A stretch of 64,000 nucleotides of DNA. Source: Sinohyriopsis cumingii. Taxonomy: Eukaryota > Mollusca > Bivalvia > Unionida > Unionidae. Location of the stretch: the NCBI GenBank assembly GCA_028554795.2, contig CM068825.1, positions 158,880,553-158,944,552 of the forward strand. The letters are read 5' to 3'. This document shows, one piece after another, positions 11,522-61,000 of this stretch (its first letter is position 1; every line of letters begins with the position of its first letter). A program made the position numbers and the translations under genes. The notes under the pieces were generated by a model, which saw nothing but the letters and a program-made list of their open reading frames with translations, had not been told where the DNA came from and did no database searches.

Positions 11522-13489
11522 ACATATATACTAACTTATAAGTCAATTTGACTATATGTTGATCCACACACACATGTTAGGGCTGCAAAAAGGGAATATC
11601 TCTAGGATCCTCCTATAAGTCAAGGTGTTTTTTGCAAGTCAAATCTATCTGCAAGGTGTGATGTGTTCAGTGAGTCAGATTTGCACATGGGGAAAAGAAA
11701 GTCAAACTGGATAAACAGACAGATAGAACAAATAAAGACACAGACAGATAGGACAAATAAAGACAAAACCAATGTAGAATAAATACATTTGTATCATTGT
11801 GTTCAATATGTACTAATAAATTGACAACTTACAATATGTCCATCTTCATTTAATGAAATCCATAATGCTTTACATTTTTAATCCATTTATATAATAAATC
11901 CATGCACTGAATTATATGCCATAAACAAGTATAAAAATTGTTATCCAGAATGATGTGATTCACGTTCTCTCATAATATATTAATTCTAAGAGTACTATAT
12001 AATAAACAAAGTAAAGTCCACAATTTTGTGATTGACAGTATCCTATAAATGTCACTAATATCAGCAGGCCCAAGAATTCATCGTCATTGTCAGAGTTATC
12101 AAATAAAATTCTGAATTCCTCCACTGTCATCCAGTCATCATAAACAGTGTATGACTCAGACTCCTTGTCTGATTCATCGTCCAGTTCTGTTTATTTGTCT
12201 TTGTCATCTGCTTGTACCACTGTTAACGTATATTTTCCTTGAATGGATTGTTTAGACAAACATCCAATCATTGTAGCAATGACACAGTGCCACCTGGAAT
12301 CACAGCTTGGTATGCAACTTCTGTTTCACAGACTGCATCAAATGTGCCCAAAATCCACTCATTCAAACCAAACTCCCAGTTTGTATAAGGGCCTTCCATT
12401 ATTCAAATTTTCTTAAGATTTCTGACACCATCAACTAGAACTGACTTTTTCTTGCGCCCATCACGCATCGTATGCATTACATTTTCTTGTCCCCATTTTG
12501 TGAAAGTACTTAAGTTTAGCAGTTTGTGATAAATTATATCCAACTGACAAAGTACACTGTAATTGACAGAACACTGACTACTCATAAACTTGGACCATTA
12601 TTATGTAGAGGTTGAGCTTAGAGACACTTTGATCATACAGTCTTTGATATCTCATCAAAGGGACTCAACATGGCAGTATCAATTCATGGCACACTAGTTA
12701 TAGACTTTACAGAAAAAAGCAATAACAGTGCTGCAGATTGTCCAGGGAGGAAAAAAAAACAGTGCTGATTTTATAGGTGAAGGATTATAGTTGTATTTAT
12801 CAAATGAGGAACTCTGTGAAAAGACTAGGTTGGTTACCCATCCCAGGACAGGAATATAAAAAAAAAACATTTTTTTAAAAATTGGGTTGAGTGAGTTTAA
12901 AAGAAACTTTGAATGTAAAATTAATATTTTGGCAAACTGGTTATTTTCATGTCTCCTTTGTTATAATTGGTGGATATTTCTTTTGTTTTCATTCAGCAAT
13001 CCAAGTCAGTTATGATAACCATTTAAACCCTGAAACTGGCTTGGGTAAGAGGGAATTTTGTCTTACAGGCAAAGTACTTTGATGTTTAATTCCCTTGTAC
13101 TCCATAATATTAGCATGATTACCATACCTGTGTAAATGGTTATGGTGTCTAACATCAAAGCAAACTGAAACTGAGTTTTGACAGTATAACAGCTATTTTA
13201 AAAACATTATTTCTGAAACAGCTTTATGGTAATTTTATTATATCAATCAATTAGTAGAAAAAAAATGTCTATGTCCCAAGACTTATAATACATGAAGCAA
13301 TTGCTCTAATTTCCCAACATTTATAGGTCATAAAAAATTACTTTTGATTATGGTGTCCCAAGACTTAGTGTCCCAAGATTTACAGTCATTACAGCAAGTT
13401 TTATTTATATCTCACTTATAAGATGACCCTTAATCTGCAGTAATAGATTTTTTTAGTAAAATGGTTGACTTATAAGCAAGTATATGTGG
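11522..13489 (-). mobile_element. pogo/Tigger-like DNA transposon with TIRs and TA target duplication
   Basis: The left terminus reads TA then ACATATATACTAACTTATAA. The right terminus, read on the - strand, is TA then CCACATATACTTGCTTATAA. Both continue GTCAA, so the imperfect terminal inverted repeats are about 26 bp. Removing the 1968-bp element and one TA rejoins the DIRS reading frame exactly (ATC TCT TA|T CTA TTC CAA). This independently confirms the borders and the TA duplication typical of Tc1/mariner/pogo transposons. The interior encodes - strand pogo-like transposase remnants. Confidence 0.82.
12060..12590 (-). pseudogene. pogo/Tigger-like transposase remnant (C-terminal part)
   Basis: On the - strand, frames within 12210-12312 read VIPGGTVSLLQ, a stop, LDVCLNNPFKENIR, a stop, then QWYKQM. 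This is the signature stretch of pogo/Tigger (DDE_1) transposases preceding the last catalytic Asp region. It is followed at 12060-12200 by an acidic tail (ELDDESDKESES, DNSDNDDEFLG), also usual in the family. The open frame at 12403-12585 upstream is in the right place for the preceding part but is not clearly alignable by eye. Internal stops make it non-functional. The TIRs at both ends support the assignment. Confidence 0.62.
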
Positions 13490-13870
13490 TATCTATTCCA
13501 AGCGCTCTCATTTGGACTGAGCGTTGGTCCCTGGGACTTCACTCATCTAATGATCTTTGTTATGGTTTATGTTCAAACCATTTCCAAGGCAATGACATAA
13601 AGTTACCCTAGATGACATCCTGCAAAAACGTCAGGTGAGTTGTATATTAGAACATGATGTTATAGCCTTTGTCACCCTGCTTACAGTCTGGGTTTCCTAG
13701 TCAACAAGGACAAATCCAACCTAGTACCATCTCAACAATTTGTTTATCTAGGTATGGAATTCAACACACAGGTAAACAGAATACGATTTCCTCAGAAATG
13801 GGTATTGAAAATCAGGACCATGGTGGCTTCAGTACTCTAGTGAATCTCTCTCCACAAGGGAATTCATTTC
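13490..13870 (+). pseudogene. DIRS-type reverse transcriptase, 3' part
   Basis: The frame resumes after the pogo element with QALSFGLSVGPWDFTHLM, matching the DIRS RT segment QALPFGL..AP..FT.LM. After frame breaks it continues from 13691 with GFLVNKDKSNLVPSQQFVYL and GMEFNTQ to a stop near 13838. The stretch that should carry the YLDD-type catalytic motif, between these two blocks, is not readable. No function is expected. Confidence 0.72.
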
Positions 13871-13899
13871 CCTTCTAGACTTGCTCAATGCATCAGTGG

Positions 13900-14800
13900 A
13901 CCTCATCATCCTTGGAAGCCTTTAGATCCACCCGTTGCAAATGATTCCTTTATCCCAATGAGAGCTCAAAAGTTTACCTTCTGGACTGACTTGTACAATA
14001 TGAGGTACCATCTGCAGACTTGGAGCAACCTAACATGGCTTACAGTGGGTGGGTGTACCTCTGTAAGAACAAATGTCAGAGATCGCAGTCTATACAAATG
14101 CAAGTAAGAAGGCAGAGGGGCACAGCTACTACCATCATTTTGGGAAGCCAGTGGAGTGTGGTCTCCCTAGGACGGCATCTACATATCAATATCAATATCC
14201 TTTGTGTATCAAACTAGGATGAAGGCCATTTTGGAAGTTTTTCATGGGTGTCAGGAATTTTAAACTGAGAAGGCAGTCCTCCTATCTGGCAATTCTACGG
14301 TGGTGACTTATCTCAAATGGCGAGGGAAACCAAGGATCCAGTCCTTTGCATAATGGTGTGGGACTTTCTAAAGTGGTGTCATCAACAAACAAATCCACAT
14401 CTAAGGTCCCAGTCCTTTGCATAATGGTGTGGGACTTTCTAAAGTGGTGTCATCAACAAACAATCCACATCCTAGTTCATCATATTCCTGGGCATGTAAA
14501 GGTTATAACTGATTCCTTTATCTGGGACAGTCGGCTTATACAGATGGAATGGTCCTCCCTTGGTTTCCACTCAGATATAGACTCAATAGGACTGACCACT
14601 GGTGGACCTGTTTGCGACAAGATGGAATACAAAGCTCCCAACCTTCATTACACCAGTCCCAGATCCCAAAACCTGGGTATTCAATGCACTGTCTATAGAT
14701 TGGAATGACCTGGATGCATACACCTACCCTCCAGCACCTCTGATTCCATGATAATACAAAAGCAAGAGAATTAGAGTGTTGCCTCATCCACATTGCACCA
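13900..14800 (+). pseudogene. DIRS-type RNase H and connection region (decayed)
   Basis: The order of remnants is SGNSTVVTYLKWRGKP near 14286, SFAIMVWDFLKWCHQQ near 14412, HHIPGHVKVITD near 14477 and RLIQMEWSS near 14533. These match in order the RNase H and adjoining region of DIRS retroelements (D.STVV.Y, HIPG, W.L). A 71-bp tandem duplication (14338-14408 and 14409-14479) lies inside it. Later frames give a fragment like SIDWNDLDAYTYPP near 14694. Multiple frameshifts are present. Confidence 0.6.
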
Positions 14801-17062: not shown

Positions 17063-17148
17063 CTGAGCAAGAGAAGAATGAATATGCTTTAAATATTGCA
17101 AACAAGATCCTAGATGAGGCTACATGGATAAATATACACTGGTTACCT
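17063..17148 (+). CDS. Host gene coding exon 3
   Basis: The acceptor TTTGTTCTGTAG (AG 17061-17062) follows a strong T-rich tract and the donor is GTAAGT at 17149. The 86-bp exon has two leading bases (CT, completing Thr) and 28 codons (EQEKNEYALNIANKILDEAT then WINIHWLP), and ends in phase 0. The last 30 bp together with the first 24 bp of the intron form a 54-bp unit present three times in tandem, so two further identical donors exist at 17203 and 17257. Confidence 0.82.
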
Positions 17149-17280
17149 GTAAGTACCTTTCTTGTCATATTAGCTACATGGATAACTATACACTGGTTAC
17201 CTGTAAGTACCTTTCTTGTCATATTAGCTACATGGATAAATATACACTGGTTACCTGTAAGTACCTTTCTTGTCATATTA
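17119..17280 (+). repeat. In-frame triplicated exon-end plus splice-donor cassette (54 bp x 3)
   Basis: Units start at 17119, 17173 and 17227. Each contains GCTACATGGATAA(A/C)TATACA, CTGGTTACCT, then GTAAGTACC and TTTCTTGTCATATTA. The 54-bp unit is 18 codons and has no stop in the host-gene frame, so donors at 17149, 17203 and 17257 would yield 0, 18 or 36 extra residues. After the third unit the frame meets TAG at about 17290, so retention would terminate the protein. Confidence 0.9.
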
Positions 17281-19365
17281 GAAGTGATTTAGTCAAGAAG
17301 TAAAGTAAGATTTTGCAAACTTACATTATTGATTTATAATTCAACAAAAGTATTTCTTTATATTTTGCTTTTAAGTTTATTGATGTTAATACTCACCTGA
17401 AGAAATTTTAGCTTTTGTTGGCTGCTGTGATCACACACACGCCTTGACTTAGGATGCACAAAGGGCAAATTGAATATGTATATTTTATTTTCCAACAGAG
17501 ATTTATAAATTCCTTTCTTCTGTTGTTTTGCCAGGTTCTTTCTTTGTATTTGTGAGATCGGTATTTTTTAAAGTTTAGATCAATTGGAAAAATTTCATAT
17601 TTGTGCAACACAAGTTGCAACAGGAATTTGGATGTGACTTTAATTCCAAGATGTTTAGAAAACTCTTTGGCATTTTGGATAGAGTTACTAGTAATCATTG
17701 CTCACAGGTATCATTTTGTATTCACACAATCACTGGTAAATTATTTGTTCATAAAGAATAGCACATTCATTATGATATTGATTTTTGATAATTGAAAGAA
17801 ACCCTTGGAAAATTTTGTGAGACTGCATTTTCTTTCTTCAGCAATTGGCGTGTAACTTGCCAGCAGTTTAACGTTTTTCTTTTTTTAAGTGACAGAAATA
17901 TTGTCTAGACTTTCTTTGTTGCTGGTATATATTTGGTTTCAAACTCACACCCTTTTGGACACGAGTCTGGCACACTAATGATGGATCCATCATGGCTCCT
18001 TGATGGGCAAGCAAAGATACTAATGTATCCAGAAAGACTAGATCACCCTTTTTCACCCATGTGACAGAGGAATCTACCTGTTTTTTTTAACCATACTGAT
18101 CTCATTCTGGTTATCTCGGACCTGTTGTCTCAGTCATGGTGTCCACGTGCTAGAAACTACTTTTAAAAAGAAACCCTTGATGTCTTCTGCTGTGGCTGAT
18201 GGAGTTGTTATGAATCGAACAACAACATATATATAGCAAAAAGAAATTCACTCATAAAGCAAATCAATGTCTCTCCAACTTTGATAACACCATACAAAAC
18301 AACAACACAGACACAGACACACACAAATAGAACTATTTGATAAAACTCCAGACACACAAGAAATCCAGATCACTGGCTACACAAAACCAAACTCTCTCAA
18401 GTACTACTGCAAAGCTGGCAAAAAACCAGAAATGTGTTACCTTAGACTGGTTTCTTCTAACTTTTTGAACAACTCAATCCACTCCAGTTGCATCAAATAT
18501 AATAATTGGATTGCAAATGAAAACTCCTGCACTTACCAACCAGAGTAGTTCATTCAGTTCATTCATCTGACAACATCGTATTCTACAAAATGATTTCCAT
18601 GTAGCGTAGCATTGCACCAGTGATAGCAACACTTGCTGAATTTCCACTGACAGAAAACATTAATTTCCAAGAGAGTCAGGAATTAGAAATTTCCTGATGT
18701 CACTACACACTTTGTTAGAACTGTACTCAGTAGGCAAATTGTACTGCACAGTATCATACTGCTGCCTACAATATAACATTTTCCAAATTAGAACTGATGA
18801 AAGTTAAACCCTATAAAAGATATTAATTATTTATTGTAAATTTCATATGACATCTATTGATTAAATGTGATAATACAGTAACAATAGCAAATGATTTTAT
18901 ATTTCTATTTTCTCGTGTAGAACTTGTGTACTTAGGGTCTTCAGGTCGCCCCATAGCCCTTGTTAACATATTTGTCTTAGTGCACAGTATTTGGAAAAAG
19001 AAAAGCATGAGACACTCATTGTGCAGTACTTCCTGCCGATAACAATTAAACCTTTTTTCTTTATTTACTTTCCTTTTCTAAGACAGGATATATAGCTAGA
19101 TTCTACTTAGATAATTAAACAGATTTTCGTGAAAGAGTACAAAACCTGATGACCATTATATAGAGTTACAAGCAGTAATAGTATCTGATGAATACTTTAT
19201 GCTTTGAATCTGCTAACTAAATTGCAAGGATGCAGGGTTATTTTAATTTAGTTGGAAAAATTGGGTTAGCCTCATGGGGAGACAAATAAAATAACCATCT
19301 GACTGGGATTTTCTTGTCTTGGTCTAAATTCAGTTCTTCTGATGCAGCTAGCTAGGTCAGCTTTG
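17281..19365 (+). other. Intron 3, first part; nothing firmly assigned
   Basis: No supported gene is seen apart from a Met-less open frame at 18288-18548 (86 codons, + strand). That frame encodes a Lys- and Asn-rich peptide with four Cys. It begins just after stop codons and ends TAG. It may be a chance frame or an exon-like remnant. Confidence 0.35.
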
Positions 19366-19835: not shown

Positions 19836-19872
19836 AATGATGTGTTTGTCATAGAAGCCAGGCTAGCAGAAG
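19836..19872 (+). CDS. Host gene coding exon 4 (37-bp micro-exon)
   Basis: The acceptor TTTTTAATTTTCAG (AG 19834-19835) and donor GTAAGT at 19873 bound 12 codons (NDVFVIEARLAE) plus one base. It starts in phase 0, as exon 3 ends, and its last G joins GT of exon 5 to give Gly. The short length alone would be weak evidence. The matched phases and strong splice consensus on both sides make it convincing. Confidence 0.78.
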
Positions 19873-20049
19873 GTAAGTCTTTTTAATAAATATAGACTGC
19901 AGAAAGAAAAGGAAATAATGTAAAGCCAATATTTGTTTTTTATTCAGCATATTAAAATAATATTTTGAATACTTTAAATGGAGTGATTAACGTGTCATTT
20001 AGAATGAGAAAGTAAATAAGTAGAGATAGCAGATTCATTTACATTTTCC

Positions 20050-20475
20050 TATCCCAACTTAAGGAAAGTGCAGGTGAAATGCCCCCCCCCCACCAGCTTA
20101 AGGAAAGTGCAGGTGAAATGCCTCTCCTCCAACTTAAAGAGGGGCCCCGAGTGGCCGAGTGGTTTAAAGTGCTCTCTGTCACGGATCACTGCCATCTCAC
20201 CTCAGTCTGCGTGGGTTTGAGTCTTGGGCATGGTCAATGTGGATATGTGAGAAAGCTTGCCGGTAGCTTCTTGTGGGTCGCTGGTTCTTTCTGGGTTTTT
20301 CCCGGGTTCTTTCTCCACCATTAATACTGGCTGCCATGTATAGCCTATCCTGTGCTAAAAAATGGCATTAAACCATACAACAACAACAACAACCAACTTA
20401 AAGAAAGTGCAGGTGAAATGCCCCTCCCCCAACTTAAGGAAAGTGCAGGTGAAATGCCCCTCCCACAAGAAACAA
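20050..20475. repeat. Minisatellite, about 35-bp unit, interrupted by a SINE
   Basis: The unit CTTAAGGAAAGTGCAGGTGA followed by AATGCCCCTCCCCCAA occurs about four times, twice before and twice after the SINE at 20141-20392. Confidence 0.8.
20141..20392 (+). mobile_element. tRNA-derived SINE (family A) with 12-bp target-site duplication
   Basis: It starts GGGGCCCCGAGTGGCCGAGT, has the B-box region GTGGGTTTGAGTC, and ends GGCATTAAACCATACAACAA. The flank CCAACTTAAAGA is duplicated at 20129-20140 and 20393-20404. The insertion is within a 35-bp minisatellite, so part of the duplication could also come from neighbouring repeat units. Confidence 0.85.
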
Positions 20476-21245: not shown

Positions 21246-24200
21246 CTCAAGGGAATGTGTTGGGTTGGAGCATATCATTCCTTCATCCCAGACCCCAAGG
21301 AATGAATGTGTAGGGTTGGAGCATTTCATTCTCAAATCTCAGACCCAAAGGAATGAATGTGTAGGGTTGGAGCATTTCATTCTCAAATCCCAGACCCCAA
21401 GGAATGAATGTGTAGGGTTGGAGCATTTCATTCTCAAATCCCAGACCCCAAGGAATGAATGTGTAGGGTTGGAGCATTTCATTCTCAAATCCCAGACCCC
21501 AAGGAATGAATGTGTAGGGTTGGAGCATTTCATTCTCAAATCCCAGACCCCAAGGAATGAATGTGTAGGGTTGGAGCATTTCATTCTCAAATCCCAGACC
21601 CCAAGGAATGAATGTGTAGGGTTGGAGCATTTCATTCTCAAATCCCAGACCCCAAGGAATGAATGTGTAGGGTTGGAGCATTTCATTCTCAAATCCCAGA
21701 CCCCAAGGAATGAATGTGTTGGGTTGGAGCATATCATTCCTTCATCCCAGACCCCAAGGAATGAATGTGTAGGGTTGGAGCATTTCATTCTCAAATCCCA
21801 GACCCCAAGGAATGAATGTGTAGGGTTGGAGCATTTCATTCTCAAATCCCAGACACCAAGGAATGAATGTGTAGGGTTGGAGCATTTCATTCTCAAATCC
21901 CAGACCCAAAGGAATGAATGTGTAGGGTTGGAGCATATCATTCCTTCATCCCAGACCCCAAAGAATGAATGTGTAGGGTTGGAGCATTTCATTCTCAAAT
22001 CCCAGACCCCAAGGAATGAATGTGTAGGGTTGGAGCATTTCATTCTCAAATCCCAAACCCCAAGGAATGAATGTGTAGGGTTGGAGCATTTCATTCTCAA
22101 ATCCCAGACACCAAGGAATGAATGTGTTGGGTTGGAGCATTTCATTCTCAAATCCCAGACCCAAAGGAATGAATGTGTAGGGTTGGAGCATTTCATTTCC
22201 AAATCCCAGACCCCAAGGAATGAATGTGTAGGGTTGGAGCATATCATTCCTTCATCCCAGACCCCAAGAAATGAATGTGTAGGGTTGGAGCATTTCATTC
22301 TCAAATCCCAGACACCAAGGAATGAATGTGTTGGGTTGGAGCATTTCATTCTCAAATCCCAGACCCAAAGGAATGAATGTGTAGGGTTGGAGCATTTCAT
22401 TTCCAAATCCCAGACCCCAAGGAATGAATGTGTAGGGTTGGAGCATATCATTCCTTCATCCCAGACCCCAAGGAATGAATGTGTTGGGTTGGAGCATATC
22501 ATTCCTTCATCTCAGACCCCAAGGAATGAATGTGTAGGGTTGGAGCATTTCATTCTCAAATCCCAGACACCAAGGAATGAATGTGTTGGGTTGGAGCATT
22601 TCATTCTCAAATCCCAGACCCAAAGGAATGAATGTGTAGGGTTGGAGCATTTCATTCTCAAATCCAGACACCAAGGAATGAATGTGTAGGGTTGGAGCAT
22701 TTCATTCCCAAATCCCAGACACCAAGGAATGATTGTCTAGGATTGGAGCATTTCATTTCCAAATCCCAGACCCCAAGGAATGAATGTGTAGGGTTGGAGC
22801 ATTTCATTCTCAAATCTCAGACCCAAAAGAATGAATGTGTAGGGTTGGAGCATTTCATTCTCAAATCCCAGACACCAAGGAATGAATGTGTAGGGTTGGA
22901 GCATTTCATTCCCAAATCCCAGACACCAAGGAATGATTGTCTAGGATTGGAGCATTTCATTTCCAAATCCCAGACCCCAAGGAATGAATGTGTAGGGTTG
23001 GAGCATTTCATTCTCAAATCTCAGACCCAAAAGAATGAATGTGTAGGGTTGGAGCATTTCATTCTCAAATCCAGACACCAAGGAATGAATGTGTAGGGTT
23101 GGAGCATTTCATTCCCAAATCTCAGACCCAAAAGAATGAATGTGTAGGGTTGGAGCATTTCATTCTCAAATCTCAGACCCAAAAGAATGAATGTGTAGGG
23201 TTGGAGCATTTCATTCTCAAATCCAGACACCAAGGAATGAATGTGTAGGGTTGGAGCATTTCATTCTCAAATCTCAGACCCAAAAGAATGAATGTGTAGG
23301 GTTGGAGCATTTCATTCTCAAATCTCAGACCCAAAAGAATGAATGTGTAGGGTTGGAGCATTTCATTCTCAAATCCAGACACCAAGGAATGAATGTGTAG
23401 GGTTGGAGCATTTCATTTCCAAATCCCAGACCCCAAGGAATGAATGTGTAGGGTTGGAGCATTTCATTTCCAAATCCCAGACACCAAGGAATGATTGTCT
23501 AGGATTGGAGCATTTCATTTCCAAATCCCAGACCCCAAGGAATGAATGTGTAGGGTTGGAGCATTTCATTTCCAAATCCCAGCCCCCAAGGAATGAATGT
23601 CTAGGGTTGGAGCATTTCATTATTAAATCCCAGCCCCCAAGGAATGAATGTCTATGGGTTGGAGCATTTCATTATTAAATCCCAGATCCCAAGGAATGAA
23701 TGTGTAGGGTTGGAGCATTTCATTTCCTCACCCCAGACCCTAAGGAATAAATATCTATGGTTGGAGCATTTCATTCCAAAATCGCAAACCCCAAGGAATG
23801 AATGTGTAGAGTTAAAGCATTTCATTTCCTCATCCCAGACCCTAAGAAATGAATATCTATGGTTGGAGCATTTTATTCCAAAATCACAGACCCCAAGGAA
23901 TGATTGTCTAGGATTGGAGCATTTTATTCCCAAATCCCAGACCCCAAAATAATGAATGTGTAGGGTTGGAGCATTTCATTCCCAAATCCCAGACCTAAAG
24001 GAATGAATTTGTAGGATTGGAGCATTTCATTGCCAAATCCCAGACCCCAAGGAATGAATGTGTAGGGTTGGAGCATTTCATTCCCAAATCCCAGACCCCA
24101 AGGAATGAATATGGTTGGAGCATTTCATTCCCAAATCCCAGACCCCAAGGAATGAATATGGTTGGAGCATTTCATTCCCAAATCCCAGACCTAAAGGAAT

Positions 24201-24317
24201 GAATTTGTAGGATTGGAGCATTTCATTCCCAAATCCCAGACCTAAAGGAATGAATGTGTAGGATTGGAGCATTTCATTCCCAAATCCCAGACCCCAAGGA
24301 ATGACTGTGTAGGGTTT
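21246..24317. repeat. 3.1-kb tandem array of a 51-bp unit, about 60 copies, with higher-order structure
   Basis: The basic unit is GGAATGAATGTGTAGGGTTG then GAGCATTTCATTCTC, AAATCCCAGACCCCAA. Variant units with CATATCATTCCTTCATCCC start that block at 21271, 21730, 21934, 22240, 22444 and 22495, which are spacings of 9, 4, 6, 4 and 1 units. Between about 22630 and 23090 a four-unit block is duplicated. From 23039 to 23400 a 152-bp triplet (51+51+50) recurs. The right end (after 23650) is more diverged. Because 51 is divisible by three and the unit lacks stops, long open frames appear on both strands; these are not genes. Confidence 0.97.
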
Positions 24318-25821: not shown

Positions 25822-25916
25822 GTTATGGGGCTAGATGGACAGCAGATGGTGAGAACTTCAGGGGCTTTCTGGAACCCCAGATGGTTGATGGCCATGAAGT
25901 TGGCTGGAAACACTGA
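25822..25916 (+). CDS. Host gene terminal coding exon 5
   Basis: The acceptor TGTTCTTATTTGCAG (AG 25820-25821) has a good pyrimidine tract. Two leading bases GT complete Gly with the final G of exon 4. Then 30 codons run to TGA at 25914-25916. The C-terminus reads YGARWTADGENFRGFLEPQM then VDGHEVGWKH. The aromatic-rich motifs look conserved, but I cannot name the family. The 3' untranslated region must lie downstream; its end was not identified. Confidence 0.82.
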
Positions 25917-26458
25917 AGAAATAACCAATACCGCATCTGTTGATATGAACTTGGGACTTAAGCAATCAAATTTTAAGAATAGATATTTTTTGTACCTGGA
26001 ATGAAGATTTACATGCAGTTGCTAAAAGAAATTGAGCTATTTCCTTGTATTCAATCTAAAACTATGGTGGTATGACTGAAAAGTTTATTTGCTTTGCAAA
26101 ATTTTTAAATCATGCCAGGCTATCATGCAAGATACCTAGTCCTTAAAACTGAGCAAGATGATGAAGAGAACTTTTAGAGTTTGGAGGAATCATTAAAAAT
26201 GCATCTCAATTATGTACATTACAGATATCTATTATTTATCCAACCTTAGGACATTTTGGAATGTTATATATTTGGTAGTCAGAAAGAGGAATAGAAACAT
26301 TAAGTCATCTGTTTTGTAACTGATGAATGAATCCCCAAAAGAATGTACTAACAGGTAGAGCTTCAGGGATTGCATGAGGGTTTTTTGTAATTTTATATGG
26401 TGACAGCATTGAAAATCATCATCACAGTTCAGGCCATTGGTACATTACCACATTTGAG

Positions 26459-26706
26459 GGGCCCAGAGTGGCTGAGCGGTCTGAAGTGCTCACCGTTACC
26501 GATCATTGCCATCTCACCTCTGTTTGCATGGGTTCGAGTCTCGGATTCAGCTAATGTGTGTATATGAGAAAGCTTGCCAGTAGCTTCTCATTGGTTGGTG
26601 GTTCTTTCTGGAGATTTCCCGGTTTCATCCTCCACCATTAATACCAGCTGCCATGTATAGCCTATCGTGTGCTGAAAAATGGCGCTAAACCCTACAACAA
26701 CAACAA
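26459..26706 (+). mobile_element. tRNA-derived SINE (family A) with 11-bp target-site duplication
   Basis: It starts GGGCCCAGAGTGGCTGAGCG, has B-box GGGTTCGAGTCTC, and ends GGCGCTAAACCCTACAACAA. The duplication is CCACATT(T/C)GAG at 26448-26458 and 26707-26717, with one mismatch. It lies about 0.5 kb downstream of the stop codon of the host gene, so it may be in its 3' UTR. Confidence 0.87.
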
Positions 26707-28382: not shown

Positions 28383-29537
28383 CTTGGATATCAAAATAAA
28401 AGATCGAAACCCTTATCAGAGTCTGACGATGAACCATGTAGTGTGGAGTCATTTCCACGCTTCATGGTCATACAGTCAAAAGATGCCACAAAACCGCTTG
28501 CCGCACTATCTCCATTTGTCATCGAAAAGACTATCACAGGATCGATTGGCACACCTAAAAGTGTTAAAAAGTTGAAATCGGGTTGTCTTCTTATTGAGTG
28601 TGAGCGACGAGGTCAATCAGACAATATCAGGAAAATGAAAACATTCTTTGATATCCCAGTAACCTCATTCGCTCACACCACACTAAATACGTCCAAAGGC
28701 GTGATTCGCTGCCGTGACTTGGCTGGAGTCACCGACGCAGATATCATCGAAGGAATGAAAAGTGAAGGTGTCACTGCAGTCCGTCGAATACGTATCAAAC
28801 GTAATAACAATCTGCAGGACACCAACACCATTGTACTCACCTTCAACAGGCCAACTGTACCCAAAGTGGTAAAAGTTGGCTTTTTGCAAGTAAAGGTAGA
28901 GATTTACATTCCCAACCCCCTTCGGTGTTATAAGTGTCAAAAATATGGCCATCACGAAGACCGCTGCTCCAAGAGCCAAATATGTGGCCGATGCGGAGAC
29001 AATGCTCATCAGGAATCTGATTGTAGAGCAACTCCGCATTGTGTCAACTGCGGAAAAGAGCACCACGCAAATTCCAAGGATTGCGATACCTGGAAACAGG
29101 AGAAGGAAATTCAGAGGGTAAAATACACAAATAATATTCCCTATCCAGAAGCCAGAAAAATTGTACAGGCAAAAACAGCCCATCCTGGCCCATCCTTCTC
29201 CACTGTAGTGAAGAGCAATCCTAAAACAACGAAGGACGCTCAAACACAAACAGAAGCACCCGATTCAACACCAAATTAAAACACCCCCCATTACCAAGCA
29301 CAGAAAAACACGGCATCTACTCAGACCACATTTAATAATACCCAACAACCTAAATCACCAAAGAGTAAAAAATCTCACGGAAACAGGCAACAAAAGGGGT
29401 CAGATGACCCCATCAAACTTTATAACAGGTTTGGAGACATCGAGAGCATGGATGCAGAAGAATCTGCTCCATGCGCCCAAGGGAACTCCAGACCTACAAA
29501 CAAAAAATTCACCCCCGTACTTCCTCCAGAGAAATAA
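28383..29537 (+). pseudogene. LINE ORF1 (RNA-binding protein), truncated at 5' end and with one in-frame stop
   Basis: The frame is open from 28383 without an ATG (first Met at 28464). Counting from 28443, three CCHC zinc knuckles are visible: C162-C165-H170-C175, C181-C184-H189-C194 and C200-C203-H208-C214, as usual for nucleic-acid-binding ORF1p. The preceding 100 residues look like the RRM-like domain of such proteins. TAA at 29277-29279 stops translation after DSTPN. The same frame then stays open to TAA at 29535-29537 and carries a plausible natural C-terminus (LYNRFGDIESMDAE). The simplest reading is one nonsense mutation in an otherwise intact 3' half. The true stop lies 62 bp before the ORF2 start. 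Confidence 0.82.
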
Positions 29538-29599
29538 CAAAACAAATTCCGTCTGCGAAAGGTCTAACCTAGCTCCACAATCTTTAATTTAAATTTATA

Positions 29600-32500
29600 A
29601 TGAAAAACACTATCATACAATGGAATTGTCGAGGACTTAAAGCAAATTACAATGATATTCTCCTGCTTTTAAACGAACATGATCCTGCGGTACTATGCCT
29701 TCAAGAAACATTCTTGAAAGATACAGACAATATCACATTTAAAAACTACTCCCTGTTTAACACCTGCTCTCCAAATGTTGATAGGGCATCAGGAGGAGTT
29801 TCTGTTATTGTAAACAACAGAGCTCCTCATAGCTTCATTCCTTTAAACACCAATTTACAAGCCATTGCTGTAAGCGTCACTCTACATGGAGTGATTACAT
29901 TTTGCTCTATTTATTTACCACCAAACACTAACCTAGTACCAAACGAACTCGACAATCTTGTTCAACAGCTTCCCACACCCTTTGTTTTACTCGGGGATTT
30001 TAATGCCCATAACATTTTATGGGGATCAAATCATATAAGTGACAGAGGTCACAAAGTTGAAGACTTTATTTCTAGACACGATCTGTGTCTATATAATACC
30101 AAAACACCTACATATTTACACCCAGGCACGGGTACATACACAAGCATCGATTTGACAATTTGTTCTCCTTCTCTGCTTTTGGACTATGAATGGAAGGTCG
30201 CTGATGACCTTCACAGCAGCGATCACTTCCCAATCTTTCTTGTAAATCTTAACTCTACAGGCGATGAAGTAATTCCACAATGGAATTTAAAGAAGGCCGA
30301 CTGGGCCAAGTTTGAAACACTCCGTAAAACTAGGCTGAATGAGGATACAGTTTTCAATGTTGACGACACCATTCAGCATTTTACATCTATTTTAATAGAG
30401 ATTGCAGAAGAATCCGTTCCCAAGTCCTCGCCATATTGTAAAAGAACCCAAAAACCTTGGGTCACTAAGGAATGTAAGGAAGCCATTAAACTATGCCGAG
30501 AAGCATTAAGGAAATTTAATAATCAACCGACGCCCGAAAACTTAAATATATATCGCATTGCCCAGGCCAAAGCTCGCCGCATAATCAAAGAAAGTAAAAG
30601 AGCATCATGGAAGAAGTATGTTTCTTCTTTAAACTCTCTTTCCTCTGTTAAAAAAGTTTGGGACACTATACGCAAAATAAACGGAAAGAGAAAGCAAAAC
30701 CCTCTCCGACATCTGACACTGAACAATAACAACTTTAGTTCAAAACGTGACATTGCAAATATTCTTGCTGACAGTTTCTCGAAAAATTCCTCATCATCTA
30801 ATTATTCAGAAGCCTTCCAAAAACTTAAAACTCAAAAAGAAAAGTCACGTTTAAAATTCACATCCAACAACTCGGAAAGTTATAATCAATTGTTCTCACT
30901 ATCGGAGCTTAGGGAGGCTTTAGATAAGGCCCATGATACATCCGCTGGGCCTGACAAGATACATTACCAGTTTCTGAAACACCTTCCAGAATCATCATTA
31001 ACATCTCTTTTGAAACTTTTCAATGATTTATGGATTACTGGTAATGTGCCAAAAATCTGGAAAGAAGCAACTGTAATACCAGTCCCCAAACCCGGTAAAG
31101 ATAGCGAAGACCCCAACAGCTATCGACCAATTGCACTCACAAGCTGTGTGTGCAAAACAATGGAACGAATGATCAATTCTCGGCTTGTCTGGTATTTGGA
31201 AACTAAGAATATAATATCTCCTTTCCAAAGTGGCTTTCGATATGGCCGGAGCACCAATGATCATCTGGTTAGACTAGAAACATTCATTCGCGATGCATTT
31301 ATTAAGAAAGAACATTTAGTAGCGGTTTTCTTTGATTTAGAAAAGGCCTATGACACGACATGGAAGTACGGGATACTAAATGACCTGAACGATCTAGGTC
31401 TAAAAGGCCGTCTGCCCTCTTTCATATCCAACTTTCTCTCCGACAGAGAATTCAAAGTACGAGTGGGCTCTACCCTCTCAGATCTGCACGAGCAAGAGAT
31501 GGGTGTGCCCCAGGGCAGTATTTTATCTGTGACGCTCTTTAACATCAAAATTAATAGCATCACCAAGTGTTTGACTCCTGGTGTGGATTGTTCGTTATAC
31601 GTTGATGATTTTCTAATATGTTATCGGTCAAAGCACATGCATACAATTGAAAGACAGCTGCAGCAAAATATAAACAAAATTCAAAATTGGGCCAATGCAA
31701 ACGGTTTCAAATTCTCGAAATCAAAAACGGTATGCATGCATTTCTGTCAGTTACGAAAACATCACGATGAACCGAACCTCACACTGGATGGAACACCTAT
31801 TCCAGTTGTTGAGGAAACCAAATTTTTAGGTATAATCTTTGACAGAAAACTGACCTTTATTCGACACCTAAAAAACTTGAAAGCCAAATGCTTAAAAGCA
31901 CTTAACCTACTTAAAGTAGTAGTGCACACTGACTGGGGTGCTGATAGAAAAGTCATCCTGAATTTATATAGAACGATTATTCGCTCCAAACTAGACTATG
32001 GTTGCGTTGTGTATGGTTCTGCCAGAAAATCGTACCTTAAAATGCTTGATCCAATTCATCATCAGGGAATAAGACTGGCTCTGGGAGCATTTATAACATC
32101 CCCGTGTGAAAGCCTTCTAGCTGAGGCGAATGAACCACCGTTATCGCATCGTAGAGAAATGCTTTCCGCACAGTATGCTCTCAAATTAAAATCAAACCCT
32201 CTGAATCCTGCTTTTTCGGCTGTTTTTCAACCCAAATACAAAACTTTATACGAAAATAAACCAAACGCCATACCTTCCTTTGGCATTAGAATATCATCCA
32301 GCCTTGACACTACAAATATAGATCTTTCAAAAATTCAGAAAACATCTATCTCCGAAACACCACCCTGGCTAATTAAACAACCAAAAGTACGTTTTATGCT
32401 ACACGATGGAAAAAAATCCGAAACAAACCCTTCTATCTTCCACAACTCTTACCATGAACTCCTCACCGAATTTAAAAACTACACCAGAATTTACACTGAT

Positions 32501-33280
32501 GGATCAAAGGATGAGGAAAAGGCTGCTGTAGCCTTTGTTTGTGGAAATCACACAACGCAAGTTCGCTTACCAAATGGAGCATCAATTTTTACAGCCGAAA
32601 TCAGAGCAATAGACCTTGCTCTGCAACATATAGAAAAGAACCGTATTTTAAACAGTATCATCTTCTCTGACTCGCTATCAGTACTCCAGTCACTACACAA
32701 TAGAAAACTGGAGAACCCATTATTGAAAAACATACTTGTAAAAAATACCGAGCTGAGTGTCTCCCACAATATAATATACTGTTGGTTACCTAGCCACATT
32801 GGTATTAAAGGTAACGAAAAAGCAGATCGCGCTGCTAAAATGGCCCTTTCTCAAGAACCATCTGATTTTAAAATACCATATACTGATTTTAAACCTTGTA
32901 TCAGAAAGTTCTTACGTCAGAAGTGGCAGGCATCATGGAATGATGCTGTAAATAACAAACTTCATGCAATCAAACCAACTCTAGGAGAATGGACTCCTTC
33001 CTACAGAACCATTCGTAGGGAGGAGGTAGTCATTGCAAGAATCCGAATTGGTCATACTTATATCACCCACACCCACATACTAAAAGGTGAAGACCCACCA
33101 GAGTGCGTTTCTTGCAATGAACCATTCACTGTCAAGCACTTTATGATAGAGTGCTTCGACCTACAACCTACGCGCGATCGTTATTACGTTGTGCATGACA
33201 TGAAAGAACTTTTTGATAATATAAACATCACTCATATTATGGAGTTCTTGAAAGCCGTAAATATTTACTCTAAACTCTGA
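29600..33280 (+). CDS. LINE ORF2: endonuclease, reverse transcriptase, RNase H
   Basis: This intact 1226-codon frame begins MKNTIIQWNCRGLK. The N-terminal APE-type endonuclease has N9, E36, LGDFNAHN (D133, N135) and SDHFP (D208, H209). The RT core is at about 440-750: motif A FFDLEKAYD (D579), motif B GVPQGS (635-640), motif C YVDD (667-670) and LGIIFD. The RNase H is at about 960-1085, with YTDGS (D967), E1000, D1024, H1066 in PSHIG and D1076 in NEKAD, so the catalytic set is complete. A C-terminal C1169-C1172-H1180-C1185 motif follows. The protein should nick target DNA and prime reverse transcription on the LINE RNA. With all catalytic residues and no stops the copy looks young, though the ORF1 defect makes autonomous movement unlikely. 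Confidence 0.96.
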   Translation: MKNTIIQWNCRGLKANYNDILLLLNEHDPAVLCLQETFLKDTDNITFKNYSLFNTCSPNVDRASGGVSVIVNNRAPHSFIPLNTNLQAIAVSVTLHGVITFCSIYLPPNTNLVPNELDNLVQQLPTPFVLLGDFNAHNILWGSNHISDRGHKVEDFISRHDLCLYNTKTPTYLHPGTGTYTSIDLTICSPSLLLDYEWKVADDLHSSDHFPIFLVNLNSTGDEVIPQWNLKKADWAKFETLRKTRLNEDTVFNVDDTIQHFTSILIEIAEESVPKSSPYCKRTQKPWVTKECKEAIKLCREALRKFNNQPTPENLNIYRIAQAKARRIIKESKRASWKKYVSSLNSLSSVKKVWDTIRKINGKRKQNPLRHLTLNNNNFSSKRDIANILADSFSKNSSSSNYSEAFQKLKTQKEKSRLKFTSNNSESYNQLFSLSELREALDKAHDTSAGPDKIHYQFLKHLPESSLTSLLKLFNDLWITGNVPKIWKEATVIPVPKPGKDSEDPNSYRPIALTSCVCKTMERMINSRLVWYLETKNIISPFQSGFRYGRSTNDHLVRLETFIRDAFIKKEHLVAVFFDLEKAYDTTWKYGILNDLNDLGLKGRLPSFISNFLSDREFKVRVGSTLSDLHEQEMGVPQGSILSVTLFNIKINSITKCLTPGVDCSLYVDDFLICYRSKHMHTIERQLQQNINKIQNWANANGFKFSKSKTVCMHFCQLRKHHDEPNLTLDGTPIPVVEETKFLGIIFDRKLTFIRHLKNLKAKCLKALNLLKVVVHTDWGADRKVILNLYRTIIRSKLDYGCVVYGSARKSYLKMLDPIHHQGIRLALGAFITSPCESLLAEANEPPLSHRREMLSAQYALKLKSNPLNPAFSAVFQPKYKTLYENKPNAIPSFGIRISSSLDTTNIDLSKIQKTSISETPPWLIKQPKVRFMLHDGKKSETNPSIFHNSYHELLTEFKNYTRIYTDGSKDEEKAAVAFVCGNHTTQVRLPNGASIFTAEIRAIDLALQHIEKNRILNSIIFSDSLSVLQSLHNRKLENPLLKNILVKNTELSVSHNIIYCWLPSHIGIKGNEKADRAAKMALSQEPSDFKIPYTDFKPCIRKFLRQKWQASWNDAVNNKLHAIKPTLGEWTPSYRTIRREEVVIARIRIGHTYITHTHILKGEDPPECVSCNEPFTVKHFMIECFDLQPTRDRYYVVHDMKELFDNINITHIMEFLKAVNIYSKL

Positions 33281-60384: not shown

Positions 60385-61000
60385 GTGAAAGTGCATCTGC
60401 AATTAGATTATCATTTTCCATGATGTGCCTTATGCCAACATCAAAGTCCGCTTTACTAATGTCTGACTTTTGTTTTTCATCTTGAAAATGAGAGTGAGGA
60501 GGTTGTGATCAGAGAGAAAGAGCTGAAGTAAGATACACTCCAAATTGTTGCAAAGCCAATATCAAAAACAAACATTCCTAATCGATTGGGAAATAATTTC
60601 TCTGGTGCTTATTTAATTTTTGTAGACAAATAGCACACTGGATGATCTACAACATTGCTGTCTTCTTGAATTAATACACTACCAACCCCAACATCACTTG
60701 CATCAACGGGGCCAAGAGTGGCCGAGTGGTCTAAAGCGCTCACCGTTACGGATCATTGCCATCTCACTCTCTGTCTGCGTGGGTTCGAATCTCGTGTGGA
60801 TATGTGAGAAAGCTTGCCAGTAGCTTCTCGTGGGTCGGTGGTTCTTTCTGGGGTTTTCCAGGGTTCTTCCTCCACCATTTATACTGGCCGCCATGTATAG
60901 CCTATCTTGTGTTGAAAATGGCGTTAAACCATACAACAACAACAACTTGCGTTAACAGACATTTTAAATGATTGACTGAACTTTAGAACCGAAAGAACTG
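60385..61000 (-). pseudogene. Ty3/Gypsy RNase H (decayed), split by a SINE
   Basis: On the - strand the sequence reads KMSVNA up to the SINE at 60944. After it, SDVGVGSVLIQEDSNVVDHP, VCYLSTKI and a scrambled block follow, ending near NDNLIADALS at about 60390-60420. This is the RNase H that follows Gypsy RT (DASDVG.GAVL.Q, DHPVCY.S..). Premature stops and frameshifts are frequent. Removing the SINE and one duplicate rejoins the frame at the conserved DAS motif, here NAS: the first catalytic Asp is replaced by Asn. Confidence 0.75.
60708..60944 (+). mobile_element. tRNA-derived SINE (family A) inside a Gypsy RNase H
   Basis: GGGGCCAAGAGTGGCCGAGT, TGGTCTAAAGCGC, GGGTTCGAATCTC, and an end GGCGTTAAACCATACAACAA. 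The target duplication is ACTTGCATCAAC (60696-60707) and ACTTGCGTTAAC (60945-60956), two mismatches. About 15 bases are missing after the B box compared with the other copies. Confidence 0.87.

Follow-up and report, generated by a model that had tools for sequence, protein, structure and literature searches.

In the mussel genome, a 54-bp segment made up of the final 30 bp of predicted exon 3 and 24 bp of the adjoining intron is present three times in tandem, and every unit carries an identical 5' splice donor. The array lies within the whole 64,000-nucleotide stretch of DNA that we analyzed (hereafter the window). Our best reading, which we hold with moderate confidence, is that a recent duplication added competing donors at this site, probably without any regulatory design. 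The units and their donors are as follows.

17119-17172, plus strand: repeat unit 1, 30 bp of exon and 24 bp of intron
17173-17226, plus strand: repeat unit 2, one base different, at 17186
17227-17280, plus strand: repeat unit 3, identical to unit 1, with the array match running one base further, to 17281
17149-17154, plus strand: donor 1, GTAAGT, score 7.3, giving +0 residues
17203-17208, plus strand: donor 2, GTAAGT, score 7.3, giving +18 residues
17257-17262, plus strand: donor 3, GTAAGT, score 7.3, giving +36 residues

TRF reported positions 17119-17281 as a tandem repeat of period 54 with 3.0 copies, 98% matches, and a score of 319. The sole change among the units is an A to C substitution at 17186 in unit 2, which replaces Asn with Thr. 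The self-match at a lag of 54 ended at both edges of the array, and a degenerate fourth copy was not seen there. The repeat itself cannot be the work of chance. When the predicted exon and the array were used together as a 238-base query against the assembly (2.90 Gb, 1138 contigs), a single match was found in the 2.9 Gb at an E value of 0.001, with very common words skipped in the search. All three donors read CCT/GTAAGTA (exon/intron) and received the same PWM score; for GT sites on one strand of a 264-kb region, which served as the yardstick, the 95th and 99th percentiles were 5.4 and 7.9, respectively. The original prediction, which had described a near-identical triplication of an exon end together with its donor, was borne out by TRF, by comparison of the units, and by the identity of the three donors.

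The host frame remains open across all three units until a stop codon at 17290-17292, and the spliced products that we computed contained 0, 18, or 36 extra residues, free of stops, depending on the donor used; the claim that every unit stays open in the host frame was thus upheld as well. That the array stays in frame is nevertheless weak evidence, because 39 of the 101 arrays with a period of at least 15 in the 264-kb region have a period divisible by 3, and a unit of 18 codons is often open. The minus strand of the array is likewise open, with a 103-aa open reading frame (ORF) and a repeated donor scoring up to 8.0. The peptide encoded by the insert is strongly hydrophobic (GRAVY 1.5), unlike the host peptide encoded by exons 2-4 (GRAVY -0.35). 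In RNA folding, the array region was less stable than all 200 shuffled sequences (z = +2.69), and the donors are therefore not likely to be buried.

We then scored the putative host gene around the array, using hand-written splice PWMs, a hand-written amino-acid background, and a codon table derived from 15 pieces of kinase sequence in this genome. Null sequences were order-2 Markov strands of 264 kb, with 6 replicates for exons 3 and 4 and 10 for exon 5. Four exons were predicted.

12997-13044, plus strand: tentative exon 2, 48 bp, ending in phase 1, acceptor 8.8, donor 7.8, total 17.7, peptide IQVSYDNHLNPETGL
17063-17148, plus strand: predicted host exon 3 as far as donor 1, with acceptor 8.4, donor 7.3, a near-neutral coding score, total 17.7
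19836-19872, plus strand: predicted host exon 4 (37 bp), NDVFVIEARLAE, entered in phase 0 and left in phase 1, acceptor 7.4, donor 12.1, total 24.0
25822-25916, plus strand: predicted terminal exon 5, YGARWTADGENFRGFLEPQMVDGHEVGWKH followed by a stop, in a phase that fits exon 4, acceptor 10.9, coding 10.5

Candidates matching the 17.7 bits of exon 3 numbered 30, 32, 36, 49, 32, and 33 per random 264-kb strand, and its coding score was attained by 33% of 16,588 arbitrary open windows of 28 codons. Among 480 kinase windows, which are the very training set of the codon table, 13% scored at or below it. Taken by itself, exon 3 therefore scores at chance level and is a candidate, not a proven exon, which its splice signals and its phase, in agreement with exons 4 and 5, argue for. 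Exon 2 has the same total, equally a chance level when taken alone, and was retained because its phase fits exon 3. Exon 4 stands out more clearly from random sequence, in which 0, 1, 2, 1, 0, and 1 candidates per 264-kb strand reached its total. In the real 264 kb, 38 non-overlapping candidates on the plus strand and 17 on the minus strand scored as high, and the window accounts for 5 and 2 of these, respectively; judging by eye, we took the candidates as a whole to be mostly frames of mobile elements and repeats. As read from the sequence, exon 4 is open in one phase only, and exon 3 ends in that phase. In a list of the best candidate per place with a score of at least 17, the only phase-0 ends between 1.4 kb and exon 4 were those of exon 3 and of a DIRS-like fragment at 13687. 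For exon 5, 25822-25916 was the best in-phase stretch from acceptor to stop after exon 4 (total 21.4; runner-up 13.9) in a search from 19.9 to 70 kb with a long interspersed nuclear element (LINE) excluded from the ranking, and the 10 random strands together yielded one match as good. Because of this phase match and of scores above those of random sequence, exons 4 and 5 probably form the tail of a gene. The original prediction of a host exon spliced to 19836 thus gained from exon 4, which exceeds the random null, and from a terminal exon added in phase, while its exon 3 alone stayed at chance level. Exon 1 was not found upstream, where the candidate lists were dominated by a DIRS-like element. 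One candidate exon, 173-222, gave no result when joined to exon 2; it ends in phase 2 and fits neither exon 2 nor exon 3.

Homology searches with the predicted peptides were negative: at an E value of 10, neither Pfam nor PDB yielded a match to the peptide of exons 3+4, to that of exons 2+3+4, or to that of exons 2+3+4+5. The three Pfam rows that appeared came only from the peptide read through the array, and all were below the cut-off (best E value 0.18). No second genomic copy or retrocopy of the host gene was found by nucleotide and protein searches of the mussel's own genome, in which the protein searches at an E value of 10, with only the best candidates scored, returned the host locus and one row of 33% at an E value of 1.87. 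In wider searches, frames on the plus strand between 1 and 30 kb and between 33.3 and 63.3 kb gave one Pfam row at an E value of 0.1, the Exo_endo_phos domain of the LINE; the region of 5.1-20.1 kb gave two PDB rows at an E value of 1 (0.27 and 0.19), which we judged to be chance, as we did three rows from phage records at an E value of 2. The tRNA and Rfam scans returned nothing. The text IHWLPVS... in the array peptide resembles the HWLPV motif of LINE reverse transcriptases. An origin of the array from a LINE remnant was considered and provisionally dropped on account of the single genome match at an E value of 0.001 (common words skipped) and the absence of any Pfam match of LINE type.

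We next asked how unusual the arrangement is locally. The window contains 36 merged tandem arrays, and the 29 with a period of at least 10 cover 11,251 of its 64,000 bp (17.6%). At this density, an in-frame array across a splice site should arise often by chance. Five arrays in the 264 kb repeat a donor as strong as this one, corresponding to six strand cases, since the array at 17119-17281 counts on both strands; among these five, only this array, on the plus strand, combines an acceptor of at least 5 within 300 bp with an open frame. We also triplicated 6000 random local segments of 20-100 bp in silico. Such a donor was carried by each unit, on either strand, in 711 of them, and the full configuration with an acceptor of at least 8.4 was obtained in 12 of the 6000. 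With 101 arrays in the 264 kb, this extrapolates to roughly 0.2 cases per 264 kb and some 2000 genome-wide, if the local density holds. Selection is therefore not required to account for the arrangement. Another array, a 51-bp minisatellite of about 60 copies at 21253-24316, lies inside predicted intron 4 and carries a 495-aa ORF on the plus strand.

Duplication also created acceptor-like sequence where the units meet. The site considered here is the following.

17212-17227, plus strand: acceptor-like TTTCTTGTCATATTAG at the junction of units 2 and 3, score 5.1-5.2, with like sites ending at 17173 and 17281

An acceptor-like AG is present at every unit junction, a feature absent from the earlier description of the array. 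The duplicated segment thus holds a donor together with a weak junction acceptor (5.1), which would close a 79-nt intron at 17149-17227.

In the reading that we prefer, local slippage or unequal exchange would recently have converted a 54-bp segment straddling the boundary between a coding exon and the intron that follows it into three copies, in a minisatellite-rich genome where tandem copying is routine. We infer that the exon is transcribed, in which case the pre-mRNA would hold three equivalent 5' splice sites at 54-nt spacing, all competing for one acceptor at 19836. U1 snRNP would bind at all three donors, and the outcome would be either a mixture or one default product, decided by position and by general factors, with SRSF1 favoring the intron-proximal site and hnRNP A1 the distal one, and with no dedicated switch. 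General rules for choice among competing 5' splice sites are outlined in PMC5585400. In the longer isoforms, 18 or 36 additional, strongly hydrophobic residues would precede NDVFVIEARLAEG. The array is most likely near-neutral, tolerated because one donor would still yield the ancestral protein.

A more skeptical account holds that the array is an intronic or intergenic minisatellite, that 17063-17148 is no exon, and that exons 4 and 5, if they are part of a gene at all, follow an upstream exon located elsewhere. We regard this as rather unlikely, although the chance-level score of exon 3, the equal total of exon 2, the many real-sequence candidates at the level of exon 4, the equally repeated donor on the minus strand, and the negative homolog search in Pfam and PDB all speak for such a coincidence. 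Against it stand the scarcity of phase-0 ends upstream of exon 4, where exon 3 shares the list only with the DIRS-like fragment, and the fact that exon 3 ends in the single phase that leaves exon 4 open; the join would read ...ANKILDEATWINIHWLP to NDVFVIEARLAEG. At the other extreme, the array could be a length-variable alternative-splicing switch, in which a protein segment would be made longer or shorter through the number of units and the donor chosen, both of which would differ from one individual to another. The identical donors, the period divisible by 3, and the open frame would suit such a device, and the near-identity of the units suggests a young, possibly unstable array. The array is, however, one match in a single assembly, its period is of a kind common among local arrays, and the hydrophobic insert seems more disruptive than modular, so that we consider a switch quite improbable, and it is not needed to explain the arrangement. 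Its strongest form, a live polymorphic in-frame ladder of 5' splice sites that adds 0, 18, 36, or more hydrophobic residues shortly before the C-terminus, appears very improbable. If true, it would be a repeat-encoded length dial, with individuals differing in unit number and a graded set of isoforms, and its unit would be far longer than that of the human precedent discussed below.

The junction acceptor raises one further alternative, that of intron birth or poison splicing, in which donor 1 and the AG at 17226-17227 remove the 79-nt intron and the product is truncated or decays. The computed product of this splice does run into a premature stop after three codons, and its score of 5.1 places TTTCTTGTCATATTAG slightly below the 90th percentile for AG sites. 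Twelve AG sites downstream score at least 6, that at 19836 among them, and beside these the junction acceptor is weak. Of the pairings within the array, one of 25 nt falls below the usual length of an animal intron, which leaves the 79-nt pairing alone as plausible. New introns have been reported to arise through tandem duplication (PMC4974935), and we still hold it extremely unlikely that this is what the array does. A recent duplication that added competing donors, probably without regulatory design, remains our preferred explanation.

Several other elements were noted in the window, in its flanks, and elsewhere in the assembly. A LINE-like element occupies 28383-33280, downstream of the predicted terminal exon; it contains a 298-aa zinc-knuckle-like ORF and a 1230-aa ORF, and the latter has an Exo_endo_phos endonuclease domain by Pfam as well as text that by eye looks like reverse transcriptase and RNase H. 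ORF-like text of the form EWLSGLKRSPLRITAIS / GPRVAEWFKVLSVTDHCHL recurs on both strands at 1385-1645, 20016-20324, 26433-26555, and 60626-60803 and probably represents one dispersed repeat family. To the left of the window, at about -5 to 0 kb, large ORFs resemble by eye a DIRS-type retroelement, and the text at 13687-14101 in the window looks related to them. To the right, at about 73-84 kb in window coordinates, dense long ORFs appear by eye Polinton- or virus-like. Elsewhere in the assembly, a 30-kb contig carries mitochondrial COX1 twice, and COX2-, COX3-, and ATP6-like frames were seen by eye at a 4.3-kb locus; these sequences resemble those of freshwater mussels. A second, much diverged mitochondrial COX1 at C1106:13170-14507 perhaps belongs to a male-type mitochondrial genome, to a nuclear copy, or to another animal. 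Kinase-domain frames occur in tandem arrays, about 7.7 kb apart and many with equal scores, at C2:2.64-2.79 Mb and on contigs C193 and C603.

The array offers a clean natural setting in which to see how a cell picks one of several identical splice donors whose flanks are nearly the same, and to study how isoforms may arise by accident in minisatellite-rich genomes. If the number of units varies, the isoform ratio could be read against the number of donors at one locus. For the present it amounts to a modest curiosity, and a precedent is known.

That precedent is a report whose title speaks of a minisatellite that supplies several splice donors (Turri, Cuin and Porter 1995, Nucleic Acids Res 23:1854; cited by PMC2572611, PMC2915984, and PMC3618361, the latter two in connection with the splicing effects of repeats). 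Judged by titles and the beginnings of abstracts, none of the literature matches listed presents a closer case. They include an intronic variable number tandem repeat that affects ABCA7 splicing (PMC5954066) and a study of C. elegans splicing and minisatellites (PMC4039745). The DDX3Y/MSY2 minisatellite (PMC3039753) was set aside as a precedent, since it involves a transcription start site and not copied donors. Pairs of ordinary alternative 5' splice sites, whose choice is attributed to position and to SR and hnRNP proteins (PMC2423196, PMC5585400), resemble the mussel donors in that competing donors face one acceptor; such pairs, as described there, differ in sequence or overlap, whereas the mussel donors are identical, have near-identical flanks, and lie 54 nt apart. 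The intron gain by tandem genomic duplication described for cases such as the potato RdRp gene (PMC4974935) is similar in that a within-gene tandem duplication copied splice signals. In the mussel, by contrast, the copied acceptor is a weak one, and the duplication would chiefly supply further donors, not a new intron.

A minisatellite that provides several splice donors is therefore of a kind already known. The papers citing the 1995 report indicate that its gene is human 6-16 (IFI6/G1P3). Its minisatellite reportedly has a 12-nt unit in many copies, with donors in frame and observed transcript variants. Going by the title of that report, the mussel array would resemble the human case in that a tandem repeat provides multiple splice donors to one transcript. 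A donor in each tandem unit is a trait found again in the mussel array, with three identical donors scoring 7.3, and so is the in-frame position of the donors, at +0, +18, and +36 residues without a stop. The two differ in scale and in kind of evidence: the human repeat is reportedly short-unit, many-copy, and seen in transcripts, whereas the mussel array has a 54-bp unit in three copies, and the use of its donors is predicted from the genome sequence.
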